A stretch of 64,000 bases of DNA, taken from an uncultured Bacteroidia bacterium. GTDB lineage: Bacteria; Bacteroidota; Bacteroidia; Bacteroidales; UBA932. The position numbers and the translations under genes are program-made. The notes under the pieces were generated by a model. That model ran no database searches, had not been told where the DNA came from, and worked only from the letters and a program-made list of their open reading frames with translations. The stretch spans positions 75,879 to 139,878 of the forward strand of contig CACXMA010000009.1 of the NCBI GenBank assembly GCA_902768665.1, written 5' to 3'. Positions 8,070 through 60,750 of the stretch are shown here, piece by piece. Within the stretch, counting starts at the first letter, position 1. Every line of letters begins with the position of its first letter.

Positions 8070-9127
8070 AAGTATCGGTCGTCATATTGAACTGGAACAC
8101 GAAAGAGTATCTTCGGCAGTTCCTTCCGGGGGTCATCGCTTCGACGATGGGCCTCGACGGGGAGGTGGTGGTCGCGGACAGCGCTTCGACGGACGGTTCG
8201 AAGGAGATGATGGCTTCGCTCTTCCCCGGGGTCCGGCTCATCCCGCTGGAGCAGAATTTCGGCTTCACGGGCGGCTACAACCGAGCCCTGGAACAGATTG
8301 ACGCCGAGTATGCCGTCCTGCTGAACTCCGACGTGGAGGTGCCGCAGGACTGGCTGGGGCCGCTGGTGGAATGGATGGACAGCCACCCGGACTGCGCGGC
8401 CTGCGGACCGAAGCTCCACAGCTACGCCGACCGCGACCGCTTCGAATATGCCGGTGCCGCGGGCGGACGGATCGACCGCTACGGCTATCCCTTCTGCCGC
8501 GGGCGGGTGCTATCCTATCTGGAAACGGACCGCGGACAGTACGACAAACCGGCGGACGTGCTCTGGGTCACAGGCGCCTGCCTGATGGTCCGGATGAACG
8601 TGTGGCGGGCCCTCGGCGGCCTGGACGACCGCTTTTTCGCCCACATGGAGGAAATCGACCTCTGCTGGCGGATGCAGCTCGCGGGCTGGAAGGTGACGGT
8701 GGTGCCGGCGTCGACCGTCTGGCATGTAGGCGGCGGGACGCTCCCGAAGGAATCCCCCTTCAAGCTCCTGCTCAACTACCGCAACAACCTCCTGCTGCTG
8801 GAGAACAATCTCGCCCGGACGCTGGCCCTGCGCATGCGCCCGGAACAGGCGCTCCGGCAGGCCCGGCGGCGGATATTCTGGCGGAAGGTGTGGGACGGCT
8901 GCAGTGCGCTGATATACTTTTTCACCCTTCGCTGGCGCTCGGTCGGGGCGGTCTGCAAGGCCCACCGCGAATACCGGCGGCTGCGGCGGAGAGAGACGCC
9001 GGCGGACATCCTCGCCTGGCGGGCGACCCTCCCGGAGAAAGTGACGATACAAGGAATGTACAACGGCTGGCTGATTCCCCAGGCCCTTCTCAAGGGCCGG
9101 AAGGTGTTCGCCGCCTTAGAACGATAG
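8066..9127 (+). CDS. Family 2 glycosyltransferase
   Basis: A 353-residue GT-A fold glycosyltransferase. It opens with VSVVILNWNTKEYL, has the nucleotide-sugar/metal site LLNSDVEVP near residue 93, and a later DDRFFAHMEEIDLCWR acceptor block, which together resemble rhamnosyltransferase-type GT2 enzymes of the cell surface. One hydrophobic stretch near residue 285 (CSALIYFFTL) could anchor it. It overlaps tldE by ATGA and precedes trkA by three bases. It is far from the polysaccharide operon at 20-33 kb, so its acceptor is unknown. Confidence 0.88.
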   Translation: MKVSVVILNWNTKEYLRQFLPGVIASTMGLDGEVVVADSASTDGSKEMMASLFPGVRLIPLEQNFGFTGGYNRALEQIDAEYAVLLNSDVEVPQDWLGPLVEWMDSHPDCAACGPKLHSYADRDRFEYAGAAGGRIDRYGYPFCRGRVLSYLETDRGQYDKPADVLWVTGACLMVRMNVWRALGGLDDRFFAHMEEIDLCWRMQLAGWKVTVVPASTVWHVGGGTLPKESPFKLLLNYRNNLLLLENNLARTLALRMRPEQALRQARRRIFWRKVWDGCSALIYFFTLRWRSVGAVCKAHREYRRLRRRETPADILAWRATLPEKVTIQGMYNGWLIPQALLKGRKVFAALER

Positions 9128-9130
9128 CGT

Positions 9131-10495
9131 ATGAAGATTATCATCGAAGGGGCCGGCGAGGTCGGTTCCCACCTGGCCAAACTGCTGAGCGCAGAATCGA
9201 ACGAGATCACGGTCATCGATCCCTATGAGGAGCGCCTCGACGCCATCAAGGCGATGGCGGACGTCGTCACCATCCAGGGCAGCCTGTCCTCGATCAGCGA
9301 CCTCAAGAAGGCGAACGTCCAGGATGCGGACCTGTTTATCTCGGTCAATCCGAAGGTGCCGCAGGACGTCAACATCGTGAGCGCCCTGGTGGCCAAGAAA
9401 CTCGGCTGCCGCAAGGTCACGGCCCGCATCGACGACGAGGAGTTCCTCTCCTCGGAGAACAAGCTGATGTTCAAACAGATGGGCCTCGACCTGATGTTCT
9501 ACCCCGAGAAGAGCGCCGCCGACGAGATCGTCTCGCTGCTGCACCACAATTCCTCGGCGGACACGACCGAATTCGGCCGCGGGAAGCTCCAGCTGACGGT
9601 GGTGCGGGTCGACGACGAGAGTCCGCTGCTGGACAAGCGCGTCGTCGAGGTGGCCCACGAGATGGCGGAGAAACTGCCGGACCACAAATTCCGCATGGTC
9701 GCCATCTCCCGCGACGCCCAAACCCTCATCCCCCGCTTCGACACCAAGTTCCGCTTCCACGACCAGGTCTATCTGATGGGCCGCCGGGACGACATCCCCG
9801 CCCTCAACGACTATCTCGGGCGGGTCAATTCCCGGATTTCGAGCGTGATGATCATGGGCGGATCGGACATCGGCGAGATGCTCGCCCGCCAGCTGACAGG
9901 GACCGTGGAGGAGATCAAGATCATTGAGAAGAACAAGGACCGCTGCCTGCGCCTGTCCGAGATCCTCGACGAGAGCATCACCATCGTCAACGGCGACGGC
10001 CGCGACGCGGAACTGCTGCAGGAAGAGGGCATTCGCGGTTATGACGCCTTCGTGGCCGTAACGGACAACGACGAAGCCAATATCCTCGCCTGCATCGGCG
10101 CGAAACGCTACGGTGTGACCCGCGTTATCGCCGAGGTAGAGAATATCGAGTACCTCCACCTCGCCGAGGACATGGGCGTGAACGCCGTCATCAACAAGAA
10201 ACTGATTACCGCCGGGCGCATCTTCAAGTTCACCCTCTCAGACAAAGTCCGCTCGGTCCGCTACATGAGCGGCACCAATGCCGAGGTGATCGAGTACACC
10301 GTCGCCCCCGGCAGTCCCGTCACGAAAAAGCCCCTGCGGGACCTCAATTTCGCGGACGACGCCGTCATCGGCGGCCTGATCCGCGGCACGGACGCCTACA
10401 TCGCCGTCGGCGACACGCTGATCGAGCCCTACGACCGCGTCGTGGTCTTCGCCCTCCCCGACGCCGTCCGGGAGGTCGACCGTTTCTTCAAATAG
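9131..10495 (+). CDS. trkA: Trk potassium uptake regulator TrkA
   Basis: A 454-residue cytosolic protein with two RCK halves. Each starts with a Rossmann NAD(H)-binding fold: EGAGEVGSHLAK at residues 6-17 and MGGSDIGEMLAR near residue 240; each is followed by a TrkA-C domain. TrkA gates the TrkH potassium channel subunit. In many Bacteroidetes trkH follows trkA directly; here the next 870 bases hold repeats and then a gene on the other strand, so the partner must be elsewhere. Confidence 0.93.
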   Translation: MKIIIEGAGEVGSHLAKLLSAESNEITVIDPYEERLDAIKAMADVVTIQGSLSSISDLKKANVQDADLFISVNPKVPQDVNIVSALVAKKLGCRKVTARIDDEEFLSSENKLMFKQMGLDLMFYPEKSAADEIVSLLHHNSSADTTEFGRGKLQLTVVRVDDESPLLDKRVVEVAHEMAEKLPDHKFRMVAISRDAQTLIPRFDTKFRFHDQVYLMGRRDDIPALNDYLGRVNSRISSVMIMGGSDIGEMLARQLTGTVEEIKIIEKNKDRCLRLSEILDESITIVNGDGRDAELLQEEGIRGYDAFVAVTDNDEANILACIGAKRYGVTRVIAEVENIEYLHLAEDMGVNAVINKKLITAGRIFKFTLSDKVRSVRYMSGTNAEVIEYTVAPGSPVTKKPLRDLNFADDAVIGGLIRGTDAYIAVGDTLIEPYDRVVVFALPDAVREVDRFFK

Positions 10496-10504
10496 CATAC
10501 GTTC

Positions 10505-10597
10505 CGTCATGCCCCGCGCATGCTGGGCATCCCTTATCGTCATGCCCCGCGTATGCAGGGCATCCCTTATCGTCATGCCCCGCGTATGCAGGGCATC
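10505..10597 (+). repeat. Three tandem 33-bp hairpin repeats
   Basis: Units begin at 10505, 10538 and 10571. Each reads CGTCATGCCCCGCG, then a short loop and a GGGCATC arm, so each can fold as GCCC/GGGC with constant outer flanks CGTCAT and ATC. Units one and two keep a CCCTTAT spacer. Units two and three are identical over the hairpin; unit one differs at two bases. Further single copies occur at 57445-57470 and, reversed, at 58498-58525. The field starts 9 bases after trkA. Confidence 0.85.
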
Positions 10598-10716
10598 TGT
10601 CCTCCGGTTTCCGGACGGTGGTCGTCAAAAGCCCGATCTCAGGGGGCTGCTTCGCATCCCCTCCTTCGGTCCTCGGCGGACGGCAGGGCTTTTGACGGCC
10701 ACCGTCCTTCAACCTG
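10598..10716 (+). repeat. Long inverted-repeat element, copy 1
   Basis: Two 22-bp arms, 10613-10634 and 10686-10707, are complementary at 21 of 22 positions and flank a GC-rich centre containing CTTCGCATCCCC. The arms begin GGACGGTGG and end in GGGCTTTTGACGG-type sequence. The same element recurs at 57378 and 57471. No open frame with coding character lies within it. Confidence 0.85.
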
Positions 10717-10730
10717 CGGCCAGAGATAGC

Positions 10731-10819
10731 GTGGCCACCCTCCTGTTGTGGGCGGAGGGTGGCTACGAAAAGCCCGGGAAAACGTGCCTACCCTCCCTTT
10801 TTCAGAGAAGGGTAGCCAC
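10731..10819 (+). repeat. Two GC-rich hairpins (CCACCCTCC/GGAGGGTGG type)
   Basis: The first hairpin (10731-10766) has a 13-bp stem with one G-T wobble and a 10-base loop. The second (10784-10819) has an 11-bp stem with one mismatch and a 14-base loop. The arms share the CTACCCTCC/GGGTAGCC theme, so they look like diverged copies of one unit. They could act as transcription terminators for trkA, though no U-run follows them. Confidence 0.7.
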
Positions 10820-10826
10820 CCTATTT

Positions 10827-10858
10827 CCGTCATTCCACGGCCTCGTCCGTGGAATCTG
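10827..10858 (+). repeat. GTCAT...ATCTG hairpin repeat (TCCACGG arms)
   Basis: The sequence has flank CCGTCAT, arm TCCACGG, a short loop, arm CCGTGGA and flank ATCTG. Close copies lie at 57683-57713, reversed at 13305-13334, and with changed arms at 58461-58490. It directly precedes the 69-bp unit doublet in both repeat fields. Confidence 0.85.
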
Positions 10859-10866
10859 TTTCCCGA

Positions 10867-11020
10867 GGGGTTTGCAATTGAATAATCGGAAATAATTGAG
10901 AATCATATACTTAATATAACCAAATTGCTAACCCCCATGAAAGAAAAGAGGGGGTTAACAATCCTATAAAGCGATTAGCGTTGATAGTCAGCACATTACC
11001 AAGTCTGGATTGCTAACCCC
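10867..11020 (+). repeat. Doublet of 69-bp palindrome-ended units, type I (locus A)
   Basis: Unit A1 spans 10867-10935 and unit A2 10951-11020. Each begins GGGGTTWRCAAT-like and ends ATTGCTAACCCC, so the ends are inverted repeats of about 12 bp. A 15-base A-rich linker separates them, and the inner arms can pair across it. The AT-rich centres carry a core related to TGATTATCAGC (10900 and 10979 regions), in the same direction. The sister doublet is at 57722-57873 with the same unit length. Confidence 0.8.
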
Positions 11021-11136
11021 TGCTTTCCGAAAAGCCGTTGGTCTGTCTGTGCACGATTTGGCGCCATCTGACCTCTAACACCTGTCCGTTGGTTATGTAA
11101 TCACTACTGGGCATACTATTTTAAGGACGACACACG

Positions 11137-11288
11137 CCACCTTCCAGCCTTTGTTTTGTAAATGATTGAAAGTCAGCTATTTGTAAAGTCCTGTCTGGAA
11201 GGTGGTCGGTTTTTCCGTGGGACCTTCCAACCGATTTTTTATAAGTAGCTAATTATGAGCCACTTTCCGCGCCATCGCTGGAAGGTGC
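11137..11288 (+). repeat. Doublet of 69-bp palindrome-ended units, type II (locus A)
   Basis: Unit A3 (11137-11205) has perfect 11-bp inverted ends CCACCTTCCAG/CTGGAAGGTGG. Unit A4 (about 11220-11288) has ACCTTCCA/TGGAAGGT ends. The linker is 14 bases. Cores around 11171-11190 and 11240-11260 resemble those of the type I units. A GGACGACACA motif sits just before A3 and is kept before the sister copy at 57951. Bases 11289-11368, up to the next gene, hold only short GGCCC-rich hairpins. Confidence 0.8.
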
Positions 11289-11368
11289 AGGCGCTTCTAG
11301 TCCGTCAGGCCCAGCACAAGCAGGGCTCTCGCCCGGCGGATGCAGGGCCTGGCCCTAAAGGGCGGAGA

Positions 11369-12235
11369 TTATGCGCCGTGGGCGCGGAGGAGCAGGTCGG
11401 CTACGACGGAGATGTCGGCGGCGGTGAGCTCGGGAACGGGGTCGGAGTCGAGAGCGGTCTCCAGTGAAGTCTCGCCGGAGAGCACGAGGATACCGAGGCC
11501 GCCGGCGTTGCGTCCGGCCGCGACGTCGGTGTAGATGCGATCCCCGATCATGGCCACCTCGTCGCTTTCGAGGCCGTATTTGTCGCGGATGCACCAGAGC
11601 ATCGCGGGATTCGGCTTGCCGATGACGATGTCGGGCTTGCGTCCCGAGGCGCCTTCGACGGCCTTGCAGATGGAGCCGCAGTCCACGAGGATCGTGTCCT
11701 CGTCGGTCGGGCAGACCCAGTCCGGGTTCGTCGCGATATAGGGGATGTCCGGTTTGGAGGCCCACCAGGCGGCGCGGCAGAGGCGCTTGTAGGCCAATGT
11801 CGTATCGAAAGCCACGATGAGCACGTCGGGCCGGTCGGCGGCATCCTCGGCGGTCAGCTCGTAGCCGGCCTTGACGAATTCTTCCTGCATGGAGGGCGTT
11901 CCGAGAAGAAAGAGCCGGCGGGCGGACGGGTGGTGCGCGCGCAGGTAATCGATGGTCGCCATCGAGGAAGTATACATCTGCCCGGGAGCCGCATCGATGC
12001 CGAGACGGGCGAGCTTCGCGATATAATCGGCGGCGCTGCGGGTCGGATTGTTGGTCAGGAAAGTATAGCCGATACCGAGGCGGGAGAGCGTCCCGAGGAA
12101 GGGTTTCGTATAGGGGAACAGGCTGTTACCCATATAGATAGTGCCGTCCATGTCGAGGGCGATGTGTCGGATGCGCGCGCAGCGCTGCAGCAGGGCCTGC
12201 TCTCCTTCCGGGGCGTAGTAACGGTGGAATTCCAT
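11369..12235 (-). CDS. HAD-IIA family sugar/nucleotide phosphatase (NagD-like)
   Basis: A 288-residue haloacid dehalogenase-superfamily hydrolase. Motif I is DMDGTIY near residues 25-31 (nucleophile and acid Asp), motif II sits in TFLTNNPTRS, and MIGDRIYTDVAAG near the C-terminus supplies the metal-binding Asp residues. The HAD-IIA subclass includes NagD and phosphoglycolate-type phosphatases acting on small phosphates in the cytosol. The start is set at the ATG at 12235; an upstream TTG would overlap the divergent promoter. It is transcribed away from the next gene. Confidence 0.88.
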   Translation of the reverse strand: MEFHRYYAPEGEQALLQRCARIRHIALDMDGTIYMGNSLFPYTKPFLGTLSRLGIGYTFLTNNPTRSAADYIAKLARLGIDAAPGQMYTSSMATIDYLRAHHPSARRLFLLGTPSMQEEFVKAGYELTAEDAADRPDVLIVAFDTTLAYKRLCRAAWWASKPDIPYIATNPDWVCPTDEDTILVDCGSICKAVEGASGRKPDIVIGKPNPAMLWCIRDKYGLESDEVAMIGDRIYTDVAAGRNAGGLGILVLSGETSLETALDSDPVPELTAADISVVADLLLRAHGA

Positions 12236-12256
12236 GGTCAAAAGGTCCAAAAAACG

Positions 12257-12287
12257 TTGCAAGATAGGAATAATTTTGATAATTTTG
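12257..12287 (+). promoter_or_regulatory. Bacteroidetes-type promoter for the G1PDH-like gene
   Basis: TTG at 12257-12259 is followed after 20 bases by TAATTTTG (12280-12287), matching the TTTG-N19-TAnnTTTG form. A second TAATTTTG lies at 12271-12278. The gene starts 24 bases downstream. Confidence 0.6.
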
Positions 12288-12311
12288 CAACTTGTACGAA
12301 CCTACCTTACG

Positions 12312-13304
12312 ATGTACTACAATACAATCCTGACGCCGACAGTCATCCGGACAGGCAAGAATATCTTAGGGAAGTTGGACGAGATCCTCGAATCCGCCCA
12401 CCTCTACTTCCCCAAGAAGATTCTCATTACCCAGGAAAATCTCTTCGAAATCTACCGTGAAAAGCTTGTCCCCGAGCAGTATGACGAGGTCATCTTCTGC
12501 AAGGGCGGCGACCTGGCCGAAGCCCGCGAGATGCTTACGAAGATCCCCAGCACCTCCGCCGTGCTGATCGCTTTCGGCGGCGGCAGCGTCCTCGACCTCG
12601 TCAAGTATGTCGGCACGCAGCTGGACAAGCCCTATATCACGATGCCCTCGGCGCTCAGTAACGACGCGATCTACAGCTGCGTCGCGCGCCTTACATACAA
12701 CCACAAGAAGAAAAGCTCGACGGTCCAGCCCCCGATGGGCGTGATCATCGACCTCAACATCGTCAAGATGTGCCCCCGCGAGCTCCTCGTCTCCGGCGCC
12801 GGCGACCTGGTGACCAACCTCTCCGCCGTCAAGGACTGGCAGCTGGCCCATGAAAAGACCGGCGAGCCCATCAACGAACTCGCCTGCATGCTCGGCCGCC
12901 AGAGCGCCCTTTCGATCTGGGACTACAGCGCCGCAGACCTCTACACCGACGACTTCCTCCGCGACCTCGCCCACGGCCTGCTGACGTCCGGTCTCTCCAT
13001 GACCGTTGCGGGACAGACCCGCGCCGCCAGCGGTTCCGAGCACATGATTTCCCACGCCATCGACGAATTCTTCCCCGAGAAGGCCACCATCCACGGCGTC
13101 CAGGTCGCCTGGGCCTTCCTCGAGATCGAGAAGCAGCTCCGCAAGGACGAGGTGTTCGCCGCCCGGCTCCAGGAATTCTACGACCGGATCGGCCTGACCG
13201 CCGTCATCGCCGACAACATCCCCTGGAAGAGCGAAGACCTCCGGAAACTCATCCCCTACGCGCTGAAAATCAGGAAGCGCTACACCATCCTCTCGGAAGC
13301 CTGA
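12312..13304 (+). CDS. Glycerol-1-phosphate dehydrogenase-like iron/zinc alcohol dehydrogenase
   Basis: A 330-residue member of the Fe-ADH_2 group (EgsA/AraM type). It has the dinucleotide motif FGGGSVLDLVKYVG near residue 100, the PSALSNDAIYS segment, and metal-ligand regions GSEHMISHAIDEF and HGVQVAW. EgsA-type enzymes reduce dihydroxyacetone phosphate to sn-glycerol 1-phosphate with NAD(P)H, the backbone used in archaeal and some bacterial ether lipids. Length is slightly short of EgsA (about 390). The ATG at 12312 fits the promoter just upstream. No prenyl transferase gene is nearby, so the product's fate is unclear. Confidence 0.8.
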   Translation: MYYNTILTPTVIRTGKNILGKLDEILESAHLYFPKKILITQENLFEIYREKLVPEQYDEVIFCKGGDLAEAREMLTKIPSTSAVLIAFGGGSVLDLVKYVGTQLDKPYITMPSALSNDAIYSCVARLTYNHKKKSSTVQPPMGVIIDLNIVKMCPRELLVSGAGDLVTNLSAVKDWQLAHEKTGEPINELACMLGRQSALSIWDYSAADLYTDDFLRDLAHGLLTSGLSMTVAGQTRAASGSEHMISHAIDEFFPEKATIHGVQVAWAFLEIEKQLRKDEVFAARLQEFYDRIGLTAVIADNIPWKSEDLRKLIPYALKIRKRYTILSEA

Positions 13305-13367
13305 AGATTCCACGGACAAACAGTGGAATGACGGCGGTATGGCCGCAGGTTTTCGGACAGTGGACGG
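13305..13367 (-). repeat. Solo repeat remnants between G1PDH-like gene and grpE
   Basis: Bases 13305-13334 are a reversed GTCAT...ATCTG hairpin with arms ATTCCAC(GG)/(CA)GTGGAAT. Bases 13343-13367 resemble the end of the long inverted-repeat element (CCGCAGGTTTTCGGACAGTGG). Both are found in the two large repeat fields. Confidence 0.7.
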
Positions 13368-50428: not shown

Positions 50429-51171
50429 TATTCAAAGTGCGGAATAGGAAGCAGCTTGAACAGGTTCGTCCGGTGCTTCCAGTCGATGCGTGCCTTGACC
50501 TCCGGGTCAGGGCATTCTCCTGTCCGGATGTAATGGTCGAGGACGGCATAGGTAAAGCCGAGATTGTCCTCGTCCGTCTTGCCCGTGAGGCCGTCCGAGG
50601 GCGCTTTTTCCACCAGATCGACGGGCAGGCCGAGGACTTTTCCGACCGCCACGACCTCCGCGACCGTCAAGCCGCCGAGCGGAGCGAAATCGCCCGCGGC
50701 GTCGCCGTAGCGGGTCGAATACCCGACCCAGTCCTCGGAGAGGTTGCAGGTGTTGGCCACGCGGCCGTTCAGCGACTGCGAGACGGCATAGACCGCCGCC
50801 ATCCTCAGGCGCGGGGCGAGGTTGATGCGCGTCTGGGCGGAAATTTCGGTATTGATGGCCCCGAGGGCGCCGCCGACTTCTGTCATCATGGCCTCGAACG
50901 AGGAACCGATGTTGACCTGGAGGTGGCGGATGCCAAGATGTTCAATCAGACGGAGGCTGTCCGGGAGATCGGGCTGGAAGCCGTTGGGCATCGTCACGCC
51001 GACGACGCGGTCCTTGCCGAGGGCCTCCGCGCAGAGGGCGGCGACCACGCTGCTGTCCTTGCCGCCGGAGATGCCGAGGACGGCGTTGCAACCGGGTCCG
51101 TTCTCTTCAAACCAGTCGCGGATCCACTGAACGGCGAGGTCTTTGACCTCCATGGGATTGAATGCTTTCAT
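50425..51171 (-). CDS. nadE: NAD+ synthase (ammonia-dependent)
   Basis: A 248-residue single-domain NadE with the PP-loop [42 protein letters not shown] and [13 protein letters not shown] motifs. It amidates nicotinic acid adenine dinucleotide using ammonia; no glutaminase domain is present. The start at 51171 (MKAFNPME) is chosen because an earlier ATG at 51192 lies inside the -7 promoter box. Confidence 0.95.
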
Positions 51172-55569: not shown

Positions 55570-57357
55570 ATGAAACGATTCATGTCCCTTCCCATTGTCG
55601 CGGCCCTGGTCGCGGCAATGGCTGTCGGCTGCTCGGACAGGCCCGTCCGCAGCGTCACTTTCGAGATTCTCGCCACCAACGACGTCCACGGACGCTGGTT
55701 CGACGAGAGTTATGTGGACGACGGCGTGCGGAATTCGCTGATGGCCGTGAACTGGTATGTAGACAGTGTGCGGACGGCCGTCGGGAAGGAGCATGTCCTG
55801 CTCATTGACTCGGGCGACTGCCTCCAGGGCGACAACGCTCCGTATTATTATAATTATGTAGATACGCTCAGCCCGCACCTTTTCCCGCGCCTGATGGCCT
55901 ATATGGGCTATGACGCCGTGGCGGTGGGGAACCATGACATCGAGACGGGACATGCCGTTTACGACCGCGTCGCCCGCGAAATGGAGGCCGCCGGGGTGCC
56001 TTTCCTGGCCGGCAACGCCATCCGCCTTTCCGACGGGAAACCTTACTTCCCGCTCTATACCATCAAGGAAAGGGACGGCATCCGCTTCGCCATCCTCGGC
56101 TACACCAACGCCAACATGAAGGCCTGGCTGGACGAGAGCGTCTGGAGCGGCATGGATTTCAAGAGCCTGATTCCGCTCGTTCAGGAAGATGTAGACCGGG
56201 TCAGGGCCGAAGAGAAGCCCGATGTCGTCATCGTGACGGTCCATTCCGGCACCGGCGAGGGCGACGGCTCCATTCTCGAGTCCCAGGGCCTCGACCTCTT
56301 CCAGTCCCTCCGCGGGGTGGATTTCCTTCTGTGCTCTCATGACCACCGCTTCCATATCGAGGACGGCGACGGGATCTGCCTTCTCAATTCCGGCAGCCAC
56401 GCCCGCAGCATCGCCCACGGGACCATCACCCTCGACCTCGACAAAAATGGGAAGATAATCGGACGCCATCTCAGCTCCGGGGATATTCCCGTCAAGGCCG
56501 AGAAGGCCGATTCCGTGATGCGGGAAACGTTCCGGAGTGAATATGAGGCCGTCAAGGCCTTCACGGTCCGCACCGTCGGCCGCCTGAGCGAAACCCTCCG
56601 CACCCGCGACGCCTACGCCGGCCGCAGTCTCTACACCGACTTCGTCCACCTTGTGACGCTGCTTTCGGCCATGCCCTACGGTGCGGACCTTTCCTTCGCC
56701 GCCCCGCTGACCTTCAACGGAACCATTCAGGCCGGAACGCTGCTCTACAACGATCTCTTTACCATCTATCCCTTTGAGAATCAGCTCTTCGTGCTGGAGA
56801 TGACCGGGCAGGAGATCCTCGACTATCTGGAATTTGACTATGACCGGTGGATCCAGGCCCCCGATGAAGGCACGGCCATCCCCGGGACCGGCGAGGTGCC
56901 GCTGCTTCGCATCCGTCCCCGTGACGACGACCGCACCGGCGCGAAAGGCTGGTCCTTCGTCAACCGCTCCTACAACTTCGACTCCGCTGCGGGTATCAAC
57001 TACACCGTGGATGTGACAAAGCCCCGCGGCTCGCGCATCTCGATCGCCGGCTTTTCAGACGGAAGGGCGTTTGACCTGTCGGCGACCTACCGCGTCGCCA
57101 TGACCTCCTACCGCGCGAACGGCGGCGGCGACCTCCTCACGCTCGGCGCCGGCATCCCTGCGGATCAGCTCGACGGCCGCACGGTCGCCCGCCTTCCCGA
57201 GCTTCGCGAACTGATTTACCAGTTCCTCCTGAAGGAAAGCGAAATCTCCCCGGCCCTCATCCGCCGCTACGCGCGCCTGCTCGGCAACTGGTCCTTCATC
57301 CCCGCGTCCATCGCCGAGCCCGCCCTCGCCCGCGACCTGTCTTTATTGTTTCCATAA
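55570..57357 (+). CDS. 5'-nucleotidase/2',3'-cyclic phosphodiesterase-like lipoprotein
   Basis: A 595-residue lipoprotein (signal ending AVGC). The metallophosphatase half has ILATNDVHGRWF, DSGDCLQGD, GNHDIETG, and HSGTGEG/CSHDHRFH; the second half is a 5'-nucleotidase C-terminal domain (AAPLTFNGTIQAGTLLYNDLFTIYPFENQL). It probably releases phosphate and nucleosides in the periplasm. The product nucleosides would suit the two nearby phosphorylases, though this link is inference. Confidence 0.92.
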   Translation: MKRFMSLPIVAALVAAMAVGCSDRPVRSVTFEILATNDVHGRWFDESYVDDGVRNSLMAVNWYVDSVRTAVGKEHVLLIDSGDCLQGDNAPYYYNYVDTLSPHLFPRLMAYMGYDAVAVGNHDIETGHAVYDRVAREMEAAGVPFLAGNAIRLSDGKPYFPLYTIKERDGIRFAILGYTNANMKAWLDESVWSGMDFKSLIPLVQEDVDRVRAEEKPDVVIVTVHSGTGEGDGSILESQGLDLFQSLRGVDFLLCSHDHRFHIEDGDGICLLNSGSHARSIAHGTITLDLDKNGKIIGRHLSSGDIPVKAEKADSVMRETFRSEYEAVKAFTVRTVGRLSETLRTRDAYAGRSLYTDFVHLVTLLSAMPYGADLSFAAPLTFNGTIQAGTLLYNDLFTIYPFENQLFVLEMTGQEILDYLEFDYDRWIQAPDEGTAIPGTGEVPLLRIRPRDDDRTGAKGWSFVNRSYNFDSAAGINYTVDVTKPRGSRISIAGFSDGRAFDLSATYRVAMTSYRANGGGDLLTLGAGIPADQLDGRTVARLPELRELIYQFLLKESEISPALIRRYARLLGNWSFIPASIAEPALARDLSLLFP

Positions 57358-57377
57358 CGCCCCTCCCGCCGCGTTTA

Positions 57378-57594
57378 CTGTCCTCCGGTTTCCGGACAGT
57401 GGTCGTCAAAAGCCCGATCTCAGGAGGCTGCTTCGCATCCCCTTCGTCATGCCCAGCGAATGCAGGGCATCTGTCCTCCGGTTTCCGGACAGTAGCCGTC
57501 AAAAGCCCGATCTCAGGAGGCTGCTTCGCATCCCCTCCTTCGGTCCTCAGCGGACGGCAGGGCTTTTGACGGCCACTGTCCTTCAACCTGCGGC
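57378..57594 (+). repeat. Long inverted-repeat element, copies 2 and 3
   Basis: Copy 2 starts at 57378 and breaks off near 57445, where one CGTCATGCC hairpin unit (57445-57470) follows. Copy 3 (57471-57594) is complete, with 22-bp arms 57487-57508 and 57560-57581 complementary at 21 of 22. The start of copy 2 to the start of copy 3 is 93 bases. Both match the element at 10598-10716. Confidence 0.85.
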
Positions 57595-57601
57595 AATACC
57601 C

Positions 57602-57713
57602 CCGTCATTCCACGGCCCTGTCCGGCGCCTGCGGCAATTGAACCGTCATTCCACGGCTTGTCCGGCGCCTGCGGCAATTGAACCGTCATTCCACGGCTTG
57701 TCCGTGGAATCTG
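57602..57713 (+). repeat. Tandem GTCAT...ATCTG hairpin repeats
   Basis: Two tandem units of 41 and 40 bp (57602-57642, 57643-57682) carry the first arm CCGTCATTCCACGG but not its partner, followed by GTCCGGCGCCTGCGGCAATTG. The third, full hairpin (57683-57713) has TCCACGG/CCGTGGA arms and the ATCTG flank, as at 10827. Confidence 0.85.
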
Positions 57714-57721
57714 TTCCCCGA

Positions 57722-57873
57722 GGGGCTAACAATCGGTCGATTTGAAATAACTAATAATCAACCGTTTATCTCGACCCTATTGCCAACCCCTAATAAAAAA
57801 GCAGGGGGTTAGCAGTAATAGAAAGCGGCCGCATTGATTATCAGCCAGTTACAACAACACAATTGCTACCCCC
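57722..57873 (+). repeat. Doublet of 69-bp palindrome-ended units, type I (locus B)
   Basis: Unit B1 (57722-57790) begins GGGGCTAACAAT and ends ATTGCCAACCCC; unit B2 (57805-57873) begins GGGGTTAGCAGT and ends ATTGCTACCCC. The linker is 14 bases and A-rich. Cores CTAATAATCAACC and TTGATTATCAGCC lie mid-unit. Lengths and order match locus A, but the inner sequence has diverged. Confidence 0.8.
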
Positions 57874-57950
57874 CCCCGCCCTGCAGGCCAGGGCACCTCA
57901 GTCTGGCCGGATAAGAATAGTGTTTACAACTATTGTACGGACGACACATG

Positions 57951-58102
57951 CCACCTTCCAGCTGAGGATTTATAAGTAACTGACTATCTGATATTTGCGA
58001 AAACGGGTCAGGAAAGAGGCCCGTTATTTCGGGGGACTTTCCAACTATACTTTTGGAAATGACTGATTATGAACAGGTTACGTTTGAAAGGCTGGAAGGT
58101 GC
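57951..58102 (+). repeat. Doublet of 69-bp palindrome-ended units, type II (locus B)
   Basis: Unit B3 (57951-58019) starts CCACCTTCCAG; its far end has decayed to CAGGAAAGAGG (8 of 11 kept). Unit B4 (about 58034-58102) has ACTTTCCA/TGGAAGGT ends. The linker is 14 bases. Cores CTGACTATCTGA and CTGATTATGAAC match those of locus A. GGACGACACA precedes it as at locus A. Confidence 0.8.
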
Positions 58103-58123
58103 AGGGCGTGAAAGTGCGGGCCC

Positions 58124-58182
58124 GATGCCCGATCAGGTCGGGCATGACGAAGTGCAGATTCCTCGCTTCGCTCGGAATGACA
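58124..58182 (-). repeat. Two GTCAT-flanked hairpins with changed arms
   Basis: Hairpin one (58124-58149) has perfect 8-bp arms ATGCCCGA/TCGGGCAT. Hairpin two (58157-58181) has ATTCC/GGAAT arms around TCGCTTCGCTC. Both keep the GAT...ATGAC outer flanks, here in reverse orientation relative to 57683. Confidence 0.75.
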
Positions 58183-58240
58183 GGAGAATGGATGCCGGGA
58201 AAGACGGAAAGCCGCTGGACGCAGGGGCGGAGGAGGCCCG

Positions 58241-58436
58241 TTGCTACTGCGGTGCGGGCTCGTGTGCGGAAACGGAAATGCGCGGGGGCCAGTGCAGGGG
58301 GCGGTGACGCGAAGCGGCATGACGAGCATTGTCCGCCGACGTTACGAGCCGCACGGCTCGTAAAAGGAGAAGTTGGCTCGTCAAGCCCCCGGTGCCGCTC
58401 CGTTTCCGCACTTTCGAGCCTGCACCGCAGTAGCAA
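58241..58436 (+). repeat. 196-bp element with about 36-bp inverted ends
   Basis: Bases 58241-58276 (starting TTGCTACTGCGGTG, ending GCGGAAACGG) are nearly complementary to 58400-58436. Inside lies a perfect 9-bp hairpin TTACGAGCC/GGCTCGTAA (58342-58363). No coding frame is credible. It looks like a non-autonomous mobile element or a relic of one. Confidence 0.6.
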
Positions 58437-58460
58437 TAGCAGGCTGCCGGAGCCCAGAGG

Positions 58461-58579
58461 ACAGATCCCACGGACAAGCCGTGGGATGACAAAAAGGGAT
58501 GCCCTGCATGCGCTGGGCATGACGGGGAGGAGCACCAGAGGACATGACGAAGCAGATTTCTCGGCAAGCTCGAAATGAC
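58461..58579 (-). repeat. Three more GTCAT-flanked hairpins
   Basis: 58461-58490 has ATCCCACGG/CCGTGGGAT arms; 58498-58525 has ATGCCC/GGGCAT arms; 58555-58579 has ATTTC/GAAAT arms. All keep GAT on one side and ATGAC on the other. The remainder up to 58614 shows nothing recognisable. Confidence 0.75.
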
Positions 58580-58614
58580 AATGGCGGGTAGGATGGTGAG
58601 ACAGCGGGGGGGAA

Positions 58615-59985
58615 CTACTGCAGCGGGAATTTCACGGCCAGGGGTTCCTGCTGGAGGCCGGCGGGGAGGCGGAGGGTGACGCGGCCGTCGGCGGAGATGG
58701 AGGCGCGGACCTTCTTGCCTGTGTTAAGGATGGTTACTTTCCCGGCGGGCTGATTGCCTTTCCAGCTCAGCTCGGCAGGGAGGTTCTCGCCGTCCGGGAG
58801 CGCGTAAATGGCATAGCAGGTCCTGCCGGCCTTGGAGGCGGCCTCCGTAAACCAGAGGCGGCCGTCGTTGTAGATGGGCGTGTTGCGGGTCCCATAGATG
58901 GCCTCGCCGCAGCGGCGCAGCCAGGCGCCGATTTCCCGGAGGACGGCGACGGCTTCCGGATTGATGAGGCCTGCCGCCGTCGGGCCTACGCCAAGGGCCA
59001 GGGAGCCGCCTTTTGCGGAGATTTCGGCCAGGGCGCCGATAATGCGGCGGGCGCTCTTGTAACGGGCGTTCGGGGTCCAGCCCCAGTCGTCGGTAAGGGT
59101 AATGCAGGATTCCCAGGGATGGTCCAGCTGGCGTGGCGGAATGGCCTGCTCGGGTGTCTGGTAGTTTTCGTTGGGGCCACCGATGGTGCGGTCGACGCAG
59201 AGCATGCCGGGAGAAACCTTCCGCATGCCGGGAAGAAGCTCGTTCAGCCCCACCTCGTCACCGGTGATCCAGCCGCCGTCGAGCCAGAGGATGTCCAGCG
59301 CGCCATAGCGGCCGCCGGTGATCTCCCGCAGCTGCGCCATCGTATAGTCGACATAGCTCTGCCACCAGTCCGGATGCATCTCCTTTTTGTAATTGATGCG
59401 GCGGTCAGGTGTCGCATAGTAGGGATTCCAGAAGCCCGGGTGGTGCCAGTCGGGCTTGGAGAAGTAGGCGCCGACCATGAAACCGCGGGATCGGAAGGCA
59501 TCGAAAACGTGCCGGGCGGCGTCGCGGCGCGGATCGGCGGCGAACGGTCCGGCCTTGGCGATGGAAAAGTCGGTGTACTGCGAGTCGAAAAGGCAGAAGC
59601 CGTCGTGGTGCTTCGTGGTGAAAATCATATACTTCATGCCGGCATCGGCAAAGACGGACGCCCACTGCGCCGGGTCGAAATCCACCGGATTGAAAACCTC
59701 GGAAAGCCCCCAATACCACTTCTTATAGTCTTCATACACAGAACCTTCCGGCCGGACGATCCAGTCCTCGTTGCAGAGGTTCCATGACTCGACGATGCCC
59801 GGAACGCTGTAGAGCCCCCAGTGGATCAGGACGCCGAACTTGAGGCTGCGCCAGGCATCGAGTTTTTCCAGCACGGCCGGATCGTCGGGCCAGACATAGC
59901 CGTCGGCGGTATTGTCCTGGGCCTGCAGGGGCGCCGCGGCAAAAAGGGCGGCTGTGAGAACGGAGAGGATTCCTGATTTTTTCAT
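58615..59985 (-). CDS. Alpha-L-fucosidase (GH29)
   Basis: A 456-residue exported enzyme (signal MKKSGILSVLTAALFAAAPLQAQ). GH29 marks are KFGVLIHWGLYSVPG, YMIFTTKHHDGFCLFDS, and ILWLDGGW with the catalytic nucleophile Asp236; a C-terminal beta-sandwich follows. It removes terminal fucose from glycans such as mucin. There is no susC/susD pair nearby, so it is not in a clear utilisation locus. Confidence 0.94.
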   Translation of the reverse strand: MKKSGILSVLTAALFAAAPLQAQDNTADGYVWPDDPAVLEKLDAWRSLKFGVLIHWGLYSVPGIVESWNLCNEDWIVRPEGSVYEDYKKWYWGLSEVFNPVDFDPAQWASVFADAGMKYMIFTTKHHDGFCLFDSQYTDFSIAKAGPFAADPRRDAARHVFDAFRSRGFMVGAYFSKPDWHHPGFWNPYYATPDRRINYKKEMHPDWWQSYVDYTMAQLREITGGRYGALDILWLDGGWITGDEVGLNELLPGMRKVSPGMLCVDRTIGGPNENYQTPEQAIPPRQLDHPWESCITLTDDWGWTPNARYKSARRIIGALAEISAKGGSLALGVGPTAAGLINPEAVAVLREIGAWLRRCGEAIYGTRNTPIYNDGRLWFTEAASKAGRTCYAIYALPDGENLPAELSWKGNQPAGKVTILNTGKKVRASISADGRVTLRLPAGLQQEPLAVKFPLQ

Positions 59986-60004
59986 GGCATGATTTTCTTA
60001 TCTG

Positions 60005-60024
60005 CAAAGATACATTTATCTTTG
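60005..60024. promoter_or_regulatory. Overlapping divergent promoters, fucosidase and OB/TonB genes
   Basis: CAAAGATA (60005-60012) is the minus-strand -7 box for the fucosidase gene; TATCTTTG (60017-60024) is the plus-strand box for the gene at 60046. The boxes are only four bases apart. Confidence 0.75.
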
Positions 60025-60045
60025 CGAAAGTAAAACAGTCTATCC

Positions 60046-60750
60046 ATGCGCCGATTCCTCCTTCTTTCCCTGCTTCTTACCGTACTCATGCCCCTTGGCG
60101 TAGCCGCGCAGGGCTACAACCGGACCATGACCGTCAAGGATTTCCGCCGGATGTCCGCCAAGGATACGACGACCTGCGTCCTTCGCGGCGTGGTGACCCG
60201 CGTCCGCGATGCCGACCGCGGCAACCTCTTCATCGACGACGGCACAGGGGAAGTATACATCTATGTCATCCGCAACGACTGGCAGTACCGGGGCAGTTTC
60301 CGCAAGTGCGACGTCCGCGAGGGCGACACGCTGACCCTCCGCGGCCGCCGGAGCGTCTACAACGGCGTCATCGAGATGAAATACGCCTTCCTCTGCGCCA
60401 AGAGCGACGGTCTCGACCACGACAGCATGCCCGTTCGTGAGCGCATGGACCGCGAACCCTCCTTCCGCGGCGGCAACCTGGAGACCTTCCGGCAATGGGC
60501 CCAGAATGAGGTCCCCGTCGTCATCGCCGACGCACCCTATCCCGGCGAAGGAACGGTCACCGTCCAGTTCGTCGTCGGCAAGAACGGCAAGGTGATGGAA
60601 GTACAGATCGTCAAAGGCGTCAACGCCGCCGTGAATGCCATCGCCATGGACATCGTCAAGCGCTCCCCGAAATGGAAACCCGGCAAGAACGACGGCAAAG
60701 GCGTCCGCGTCACCTACCAGATTCCCTTGGAATTTACAGCTCAGCAGTAG
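60046..60750 (+). CDS. Secreted OB-fold protein with a TonB C-terminal domain
   Basis: A 234-residue exported protein (signal ending GVAAQG). Residues about 35-120 look like an OB-fold (CVLRGVVTRVRDADRGNLFIDDGTGEVYIYV). Residues about 155-230 match TonB_C (YPGEGTVTVQFVVGKNGKVMEVQIVKGVNAAVNAIAMDIVKRSPKW). There is no proline-rich TonB spacer or membrane anchor, so it is unlikely to act as a normal energy transducer. Its 3' end overlaps the convergent MATE gene by 17 bases. Confidence 0.8.
   Translation: MRRFLLLSLLLTVLMPLGVAAQGYNRTMTVKDFRRMSAKDTTTCVLRGVVTRVRDADRGNLFIDDGTGEVYIYVIRNDWQYRGSFRKCDVREGDTLTLRGRRSVYNGVIEMKYAFLCAKSDGLDHDSMPVRERMDREPSFRGGNLETFRQWAQNEVPVVIADAPYPGEGTVTVQFVVGKNGKVMEVQIVKGVNAAVNAIAMDIVKRSPKWKPGKNDGKGVRVTYQIPLEFTAQQ

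Follow-up and report, generated by a model that had tools for sequence, protein, structure and literature searches.

The tract at positions 10867-11288 of the window (the whole stretch of 64,000 nucleotides analysed here) raises the question of what kind of element is built from paired units of nearly constant length whose inverted ends differ in sequence. The original prediction had described it as a repeat of no known kind. The present analysis places the tract near the REP elements, which belong to the most common repeats of bacteria. With a probability of about 0.8, its doublets are a non-autonomous element of the REPIN/TIR-like type that lacks the GTAG guide and would be mobilised by a Y1/HUH transposase.

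Architecture of the tract

The coordinates proposed for the four units of 69-70 bp, with inverted arms and linkers of 14-15 bp, were confirmed in the sequence. Pair I consists of unit 1 (10867-10935, 69 bp, plus strand, arms GGGGTTTGCAAT / ATTGCTAACCCC) and unit 2 (10951-11020, 70 bp, minus strand, arms GGGGTTAACAAT / ATTGCTAACCCC), separated by a linker of 15 bp at 10936-10950. Pair II consists of unit 3 (11137-11205, 69 bp, plus strand, arms CCACCTTCCAG / CTGGAAGGTGG) and unit 4 (11220-11288, 69 bp, plus strand, arms GGACCTTCCAA / CTGGAAGGTGC, which pair over about 8 bp only), separated by a linker of 14 bp at 11206-11219. No strand is assigned to the linkers, which carry a T or A run adjoining the hairpin. 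All four units are homologous through a common core, roughly TTTTGTAAGTGATTGATTATCAGNNNNTT, which is inverted in unit 2.

Pair I is preceded by a CGTC-type REP hairpin at 10828-10858 on the plus strand, recognised by alignment and classed after PMC3733652. The composite thus starts with this hairpin, continues with pair I and a spacer, and closes with pair II. This hairpin is found ahead of 10 of the 11 copies of pair I with a left flank; it is absent at the copy beside the transposase gene described below. A second composite copy lies in the window on the plus strand, with pair I at 57722-57873 (units 57722-57790 and 57805-57873) and pair II at 57951-58102 (units 57951-58019 and 58034-58102).

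The reported tract is located in an intergenic stretch of 873 bp between a plus-strand gene ending at 10495 and a minus-strand gene ending at 11369, with their 3' ends facing. Judging by their translations, these genes are probably TrkA-like and HAD-type, respectively. The same stretch contains three CGTC-type repeats of 33 bp at 10505-10603. CGTC-type hairpins occur in the window single or in tandem, at 10505-10603 (the 33-bp tandem run), 10828-10858 and 13286-13334. An inverted repeat of about 130 bp, GTCAAAAGCCC..GGGCTTTTGAC, is found at 10596-10724, with copies elsewhere (for example, L013:436-563) that are mostly more than 90% identical and so more alike than the doublets are. A GTAG-type REP pair, GTAGCCACCCTCC, with 53-bp spacing lies at 10734-10816, and it also flanks a different transposase gene of the genome on either side (L134, G000:C5). 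Bacteroidetes are not listed among the phyla with GTAG repeats in the available part of PMC3733652.

Folded as single-stranded DNA, both pairs surpass every one of 200 dinucleotide shuffles (pair I, z -3.3; pair II, z -4.0). A scan for doublets blind to sequence, for which the 64-kb window was cut into 260 overlapping segments, gave six distinct places, namely both reported pairs, the GTAG-type REP pair at 10734-10816, and positions 9429, 50535 and 57407. The place at 50535 is regarded as an artefact, as the score drops and the arms are imperfect; so is that at 57407, a nested copy of another repeat; and that at 9429 is probably due to chance. The scan therefore yields a few false hits in natural DNA.

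Copies in the genome

The original prediction depended on further copies, and these are observed directly: a block of 441 bp has 24 matching places in its own genome, itself included. Ten copies of pair I and fifteen of pair II were aligned. The mean pairwise identity is 64% for pair I and 71% for pair II; the best values are only 87% and 89%, so no fresh copy is visible. The 50 aligned units are 68-70 bp long when cut by alignment columns, or 69-70 bp after a second cut made for the unit alignment, and have an AT-rich core in common, while the arms differ between pairs I and II. A covariance model, R1, was built from these 50 units, which therefore match it by construction. Among the best 83 of 431 candidates scored, it located at least 53 distinct unit places in the genome, and two more units beside a transposase gene bring the number to at least 55 units at 18 places. 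Both pairs are present at 11 of these places (some partial), pair II only at 5, and pair I only at 2. The start-to-start distance within a doublet is 83-84 bp. The core was also considered as a common Bacteroidales repeat, and this was rejected: single matches were found in 5 of 61 genomes, and the own genome, with one mismatch allowed, gave no match.

In the alignment of 50 units, 86.3% of the arm cells are paired. The covariation score of the arms is 0.525, compared with 0.199 in shuffles and at most 0.190 when the arms are slid, and is mostly supplied by the difference between the two arm families. Within-unit and nested pairing are level in the copies of this genome. In the flanks of transposase genes (spacings 48-55, 70-76 and 82-86 only), nested pairing is better in 33 cases and within-unit pairing in 21, with 48 ties. 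RNAalifold favours the nested pairing, and single-stranded DNA folding the within-unit pairing. The motif GT[AG]G was sought on either strand in the interval that reaches from 6 nt beyond the foot to 2 nt within it, and 7 of the 50 units have it there.

The fixed length and linker had been read as a recognised DNA or RNA shape rather than decay. The conserved build holds, in that the same length and linker are kept despite differing arms and recur in sister species with other arms again. The RNA part of the proposal does not gain from the data: the arms contain 60 G-T and 44 A-C cells, which is no clear asymmetry of wobble pairs between the strands, and an Rfam cmscan of window positions 9000-13000 at E up to 1 gave two weak matches, neither inside the tract.

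The same wobble count bears on whether the doublets are terminators or 3'-end RNA hairpins kept by the host between convergent genes, the link to the transposase being incidental. According to a crude ORF picker, the 18 copies are flanked by convergent genes in 8 cases, tandem genes in 5 and divergent genes in 2, with no assignment in 3. Such a role fits the 8 convergent copies among the 15 with both neighbours assigned, and also the T or A run next to the hairpin. However, 7 of the 15 copies are not convergent, the wobble pairs show no clear asymmetry between the strands, the tracts are absent at both sites compared in a sister genome, and the arms vary by genome and follow the transposase. 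We regard a terminator function as an unlikely explanation.

Another dispersed repeat of this genome, with iterated GCAGGTC/GACCTGC arms, was found at L009:848-937, L012:1353-1444, L013:724-815 and L018:572-663; its doublet spacing is 62 bp in the four stretches scanned, and a fifth stretch holds a different repeat with a spacing of 51 bp. At L013 the GCAGGTC/GACCTGC repeat precedes pair II, in the place of pair I.

The adjoining transposase genes

The sequence of the own genome, from which about 12% is missing, contains at least five genes of one transposase family. For one of them, the C1 gene (297 codons, G000:C1:68619-69512, equal to L136:1920-2813), a pair-I doublet at L136:2822-2975 begins 8 bases past the stop codon. 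The sequence GGCTGGAAGGTGC, just beyond this doublet, is similar to the final arm of pair II. Another pair-I doublet is located 1.3 kb upstream of the C1 transposase, past a gene that is presumably lpxK-like by its translation. With one doublet directly beside the gene and further copies dispersed in the genome, pair I occurs both at the gene side and elsewhere, as is expected for REPINs, and is assigned to the C1 transposase. This does not apply to pair II, which may be placed in the same system through homology of its core and build only. In this respect the claim of no known kind is not upheld: the pairs adjoin genes for REP-associated tyrosine transposases (RAYT), like the REP, REPIN and TIR repeats of REPtrons and TIRtrons.

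The genes encode proteins of roughly 280-320 amino acid residues with a helical C-terminal part. The HUH motif and the single catalytic-type tyrosine are present, HxH, Tyr and Asn being invariant in all ten aligned proteins. The Pfam family Y1_Tnp matches 4 of 7 proteins scanned, every one below the cut-off, and a genome search with it gave two genes of the own genome at 23-24 bits. All ten aligned proteins match the NCBIfam family NF047646 (REP_Tyr_transpos), again below the cut-off; a protein of the own genome scores 27.7 bits against a curated cut-off of 80. A PDB sequence search with the transposase gave just three weak matches, all unrelated. The predicted structure has a mean pLDDT of 82.3, and its sole PDB match below an E-value of 0.001 is the REP-bound transposase 4er8 (E 2.1e-4, TM 0.35 by query and 0.60 by target). 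The next fold matches, at E about 0.01, are IS200/IS605 transposases and Thg1-like enzymes. Relatives of the transposase are found in at least 33 of 61 genomes, all of the same genus, and in none of the 24 same-order genomes among the matches listed.

Doublets and transposases in sister species

A BLAST search of 36 same-genus and 24 same-order genomes with the tract yielded no comparable match, except that one same-genus genome matches the CGTC-REP part alone. The covariance model R1 detects units in same-genus genomes whose arms are of other sequence (best E 3.1e-8). Several of these units form doublets, with a start-to-start distance of 83-84 bp and, in G003, also of 125 bp. In same-order genomes it matches only at E above 0.01. 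Transposase genes of the Y1 type directly adjoin doublets or units in G003, G021, G024, G026 and G034.

The linkage was assessed at 84 transposase loci, or 83 after L163, a duplicate of L142, was dropped; 80 of these loci are a selection among the matches listed, and R1 contributed four. The scan, which is blind to sequence and looks for four 8-base arms that all complement one another, detected doublets at 59 of the 83 loci of the genus, 90 doublets in total. It gave no doublet in 164 shuffled flanks, and 24 loci are without one at this threshold. With 9-base arms, and with L163 included, 84 doublets were found at 56 of 84 loci, with one match in 166 shuffled flanks. Another shuffle control, likewise with L163, gave 0 of 504, and the looser threshold used for the tree labels below gave 4 doublets in 164 shuffled flanks. 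In a second, named set of loci, whose genomes are partly shared with the first, 40 of 80 loci carry doublets, 56 in total, while 160 shuffled flanks carry none. This set consists mostly of Bacteroidales MAGs, also Cryptobacteroides, Coprenecus and a few Butyrivibrio and Lachnospiraceae; its positions are taken from match starts and not gene starts, and R1 was run on 31 of its 80 loci.

The arms at the transposase genes were compared with dispersed arms using six hand-chosen arm families. Dispersed arms mostly match the transposase-side arms of their own genome best or jointly best. In G034 the own transposase arms are top alone for 7 of 8 dispersed units and jointly for 1 of 8; in G003 they are top alone for 4 of 5 and jointly for 1 of 5; in G061 both dispersed units are tied. 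The two pair-I units of the reported tract tie with the arms of the transposase of G003, which is another species, and the arms of its two pair-II units match no transposase-side arms.

These results also bear on an ordinary MITE moved by a DDE transposase. The inverted ends, the short AT-rich bodies and the composite copies are all in keeping with such an element. However, like arms adjoin a Y1 transposase gene, gene-side and dispersed arms agree within genomes, and the arms recur inside the element and not just at its ends. A MITE is a very unlikely explanation.

Within the preferred REPIN/TIR-like reading, each pair would be a REPIN-like doublet of two 69-bp imperfect palindromes, copied in trans by a REP-associated tyrosine transposase. 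The arms would close to hairpins in single-stranded DNA, for example at a replication fork; the transposase would bind the doublet, nick and join the strands, and a copy would be inserted elsewhere. The composite has probably spread in this way into intergenic DNA, often between convergent gene ends. Arms could drift provided that their complementarity stays, while the core and the spacing are proposed to be fixed because the protein reads them. The copies and their geometry, the neighbouring transposase genes, the match of arms inside genomes and the lack of the tracts in a sister genome are observed; mobilisation, the strand chemistry and the recognition of core and spacing are what we infer here.

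Spacing and the protein tree

The spacings found by the 8-base scan fall into a class of 50-54 bp (48 doublets), one of 72-75 bp (23) and one of 83-85 bp (5), with 14 others. Spacing labels set on a tree of 83 protein rows form clusters, with 30 changes against a shuffled mean of 45.6 and a value as low in none of 200 shuffles, a figure to which near-copies contribute. Eight of the 83 rows are without a doublet, 11 have odd single values, and the label 't10' is unclustered. In the clade holding the C1 gene all five loci belong to the 82-86-bp class, and the nearest relatives have 74 and 125 bp. For L092, L093 and L096, R1 gives 83-84 bp or single units, and the scan labels differ.

At 49 of 59 loci the spacing is within 1.5 bp of a multiple of 10.4, compared with 29% by chance; since the loci are related, this comparison is not a probability, and the independent clades that bear on the question are few. 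In the second set the fit is found for 28 of 46 distinct locus-spacing values, or for 26 of 40 loci by median. The class of 87-89 bp (L242, L246, L256, L277 and L298) breaks the rule; a suspected class of 93 bp was dropped on re-examination. The same scan applied to 200 kb of E. coli K-12 gave 8 doublets whose spacing is scattered, and 1 fits a multiple of 10.4. A spacing near whole helical turns is therefore only suggestive.

It is conceivable, though doubtful, that the REP transposases of this genus read the hairpin together with a spacing fixed for each clade, so that the palindromes may drift if they remain complementary. The spacings would then lie mostly near whole turns, about 52, 62, 73 and 84 bp, and a transposase oligomer might bind two dyads on one face of the duplex, before or instead of single-strand hairpins. 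Clades would shift their spacing by whole turns, as perhaps in L193, with 84 bp within a clade of 72-73 bp.

Spacings often near whole turns would also suit chromosome-structuring sites for an IHF/HU-like protein or gyrase, with a role like that of the IHF-binding BIME/RIB elements of E. coli. The site WATCAANNNNTTR, an IHF-like consensus, is enriched: 6 of the 50 units have it, against a mean of 0.3 and a maximum of 4 in shuffles, and 11 of 50 have a relaxed form (shuffled mean 0.385). It is missing, however, in 44 of the 50 units, and such a role leaves the linkage to the transposase unexplained, so that we consider it very unlikely as the explanation of the doublets. IHF-like binding could be a secondary role.

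Comparison with a sister genome

The region of the C1 transposase is present in an uncultured Bacteroidales genome, G061 (SRR12081302_bin.38; locus L230), with 97.4% identity over 2621 bp (L136:423-3043); the other stretches compared are 77-91% identical, possibly reflecting recent exchange of this region between the two genomes. In the 1.3 Mb of G061 compared, the sequence up to the 3' end of the TrkA-like gene is present (91%), and window positions 10495-11390, with the whole tract, have no counterpart. The adjacent segment 11391-13300 is inverted, and the junctions hold 59 and 15 bp. At the second tract, 57357-58626 is missing and 58627-60745 is inverted, with 71 and 19 bp at the junctions. 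Both tracts thus lie at one end of small two-gene inversions of about 1.9 and 2.1 kb (2 of 2 sites). These data do not distinguish a gain of the tracts in one lineage from their loss in the other. In G061 the model R1 locates three doublets; their arms are pair-I-like throughout, and two of the three share a contig with the transposase. A search for the gene order in 36 relatives and the own genome found the HAD-like gene in 12 of 37 genomes, the own included, with the TrkA-like gene beside it (1.5-kb flanks) only at the own locus.

Relation to known systems

The REPINs of Pseudomonas fluorescens SBW25, REP doublets that form hairpins, are described in PMC3116915 with short REPs built around 16-mers and with spacings of 71 and 110 bp. 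The present elements share with them the doublets of palindromes, the family-specific spacing, the location both at a Y1 transposase gene and elsewhere, and the proposed mobilisation in trans. They differ in their 69-bp units, the conserved AT-rich core, the lack of a GTAG guide and the arms that change yet stay complementary. The word helical is absent from that paper. The REP/BIME and RAYT system of E. coli likewise has paired palindromes, some next to a Y1 transposase gene and others dispersed, and the linker of its BIMEs is variable (PMC8266576).

Canonical REP and REPIN units are hairpins of 20-50 nt, whereas the units here are of 68-70 bp; with this length and no GTAG guide the canonical REP label is unjustified, and that of a RAYT-associated repeat in the wide sense is justified for pair I. 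The nearest description is that of TIRtrons and their TIRYT genes. According to the available part of PMC3733652, these genes are RAYT-like and lie between inverted repeats that have no relation to GTAG REPs and often contain GGGGWSAS, and some TIR repeats form families of moderate size, in dimers or clusters. Dimers and gene flanking are present here and several arms start with GGGGT; GGGGWSAS fits pair I (GGGGTTAGCA) partly and pair II not. The TIRtron description in that portion of the source has no 69-bp units that are paired, share a core and keep a fixed spacing. In the classification of PMC6006769, the TnpA-REP subclass 2.6 comprises genes of Bacteroidetes next to 'atypical secondary structures' of which further copies exist away from the genes, and resembles the present case by this description, which gives no geometry in the part available; subclass 2.1 comprises long proteins with a C-terminal HTH, probably TIRYT, reported without REP-like sequences. 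In the literature searched on RAYT/REP repeats, subscription papers and supplements aside, no title or abstract opening describes such doublets.

The tract is most likely a RAYT-associated mobile repeat in an unusually regular and previously undescribed shape, of a kind, the REP elements, that is itself known. Recognition by REP transposases is understood mainly for short GTAG hairpins. One genus here offers a natural series in which the sequence differs and the geometry is ruled, so that the protein clade can be compared with the spacing, the pairing of the arms and the core. The recognition mode of RAYTs, and the doublet as the moving unit, become directly testable questions. Since both tracts compared coincide with small inversions between sister species, such repeats may also shape gene order.
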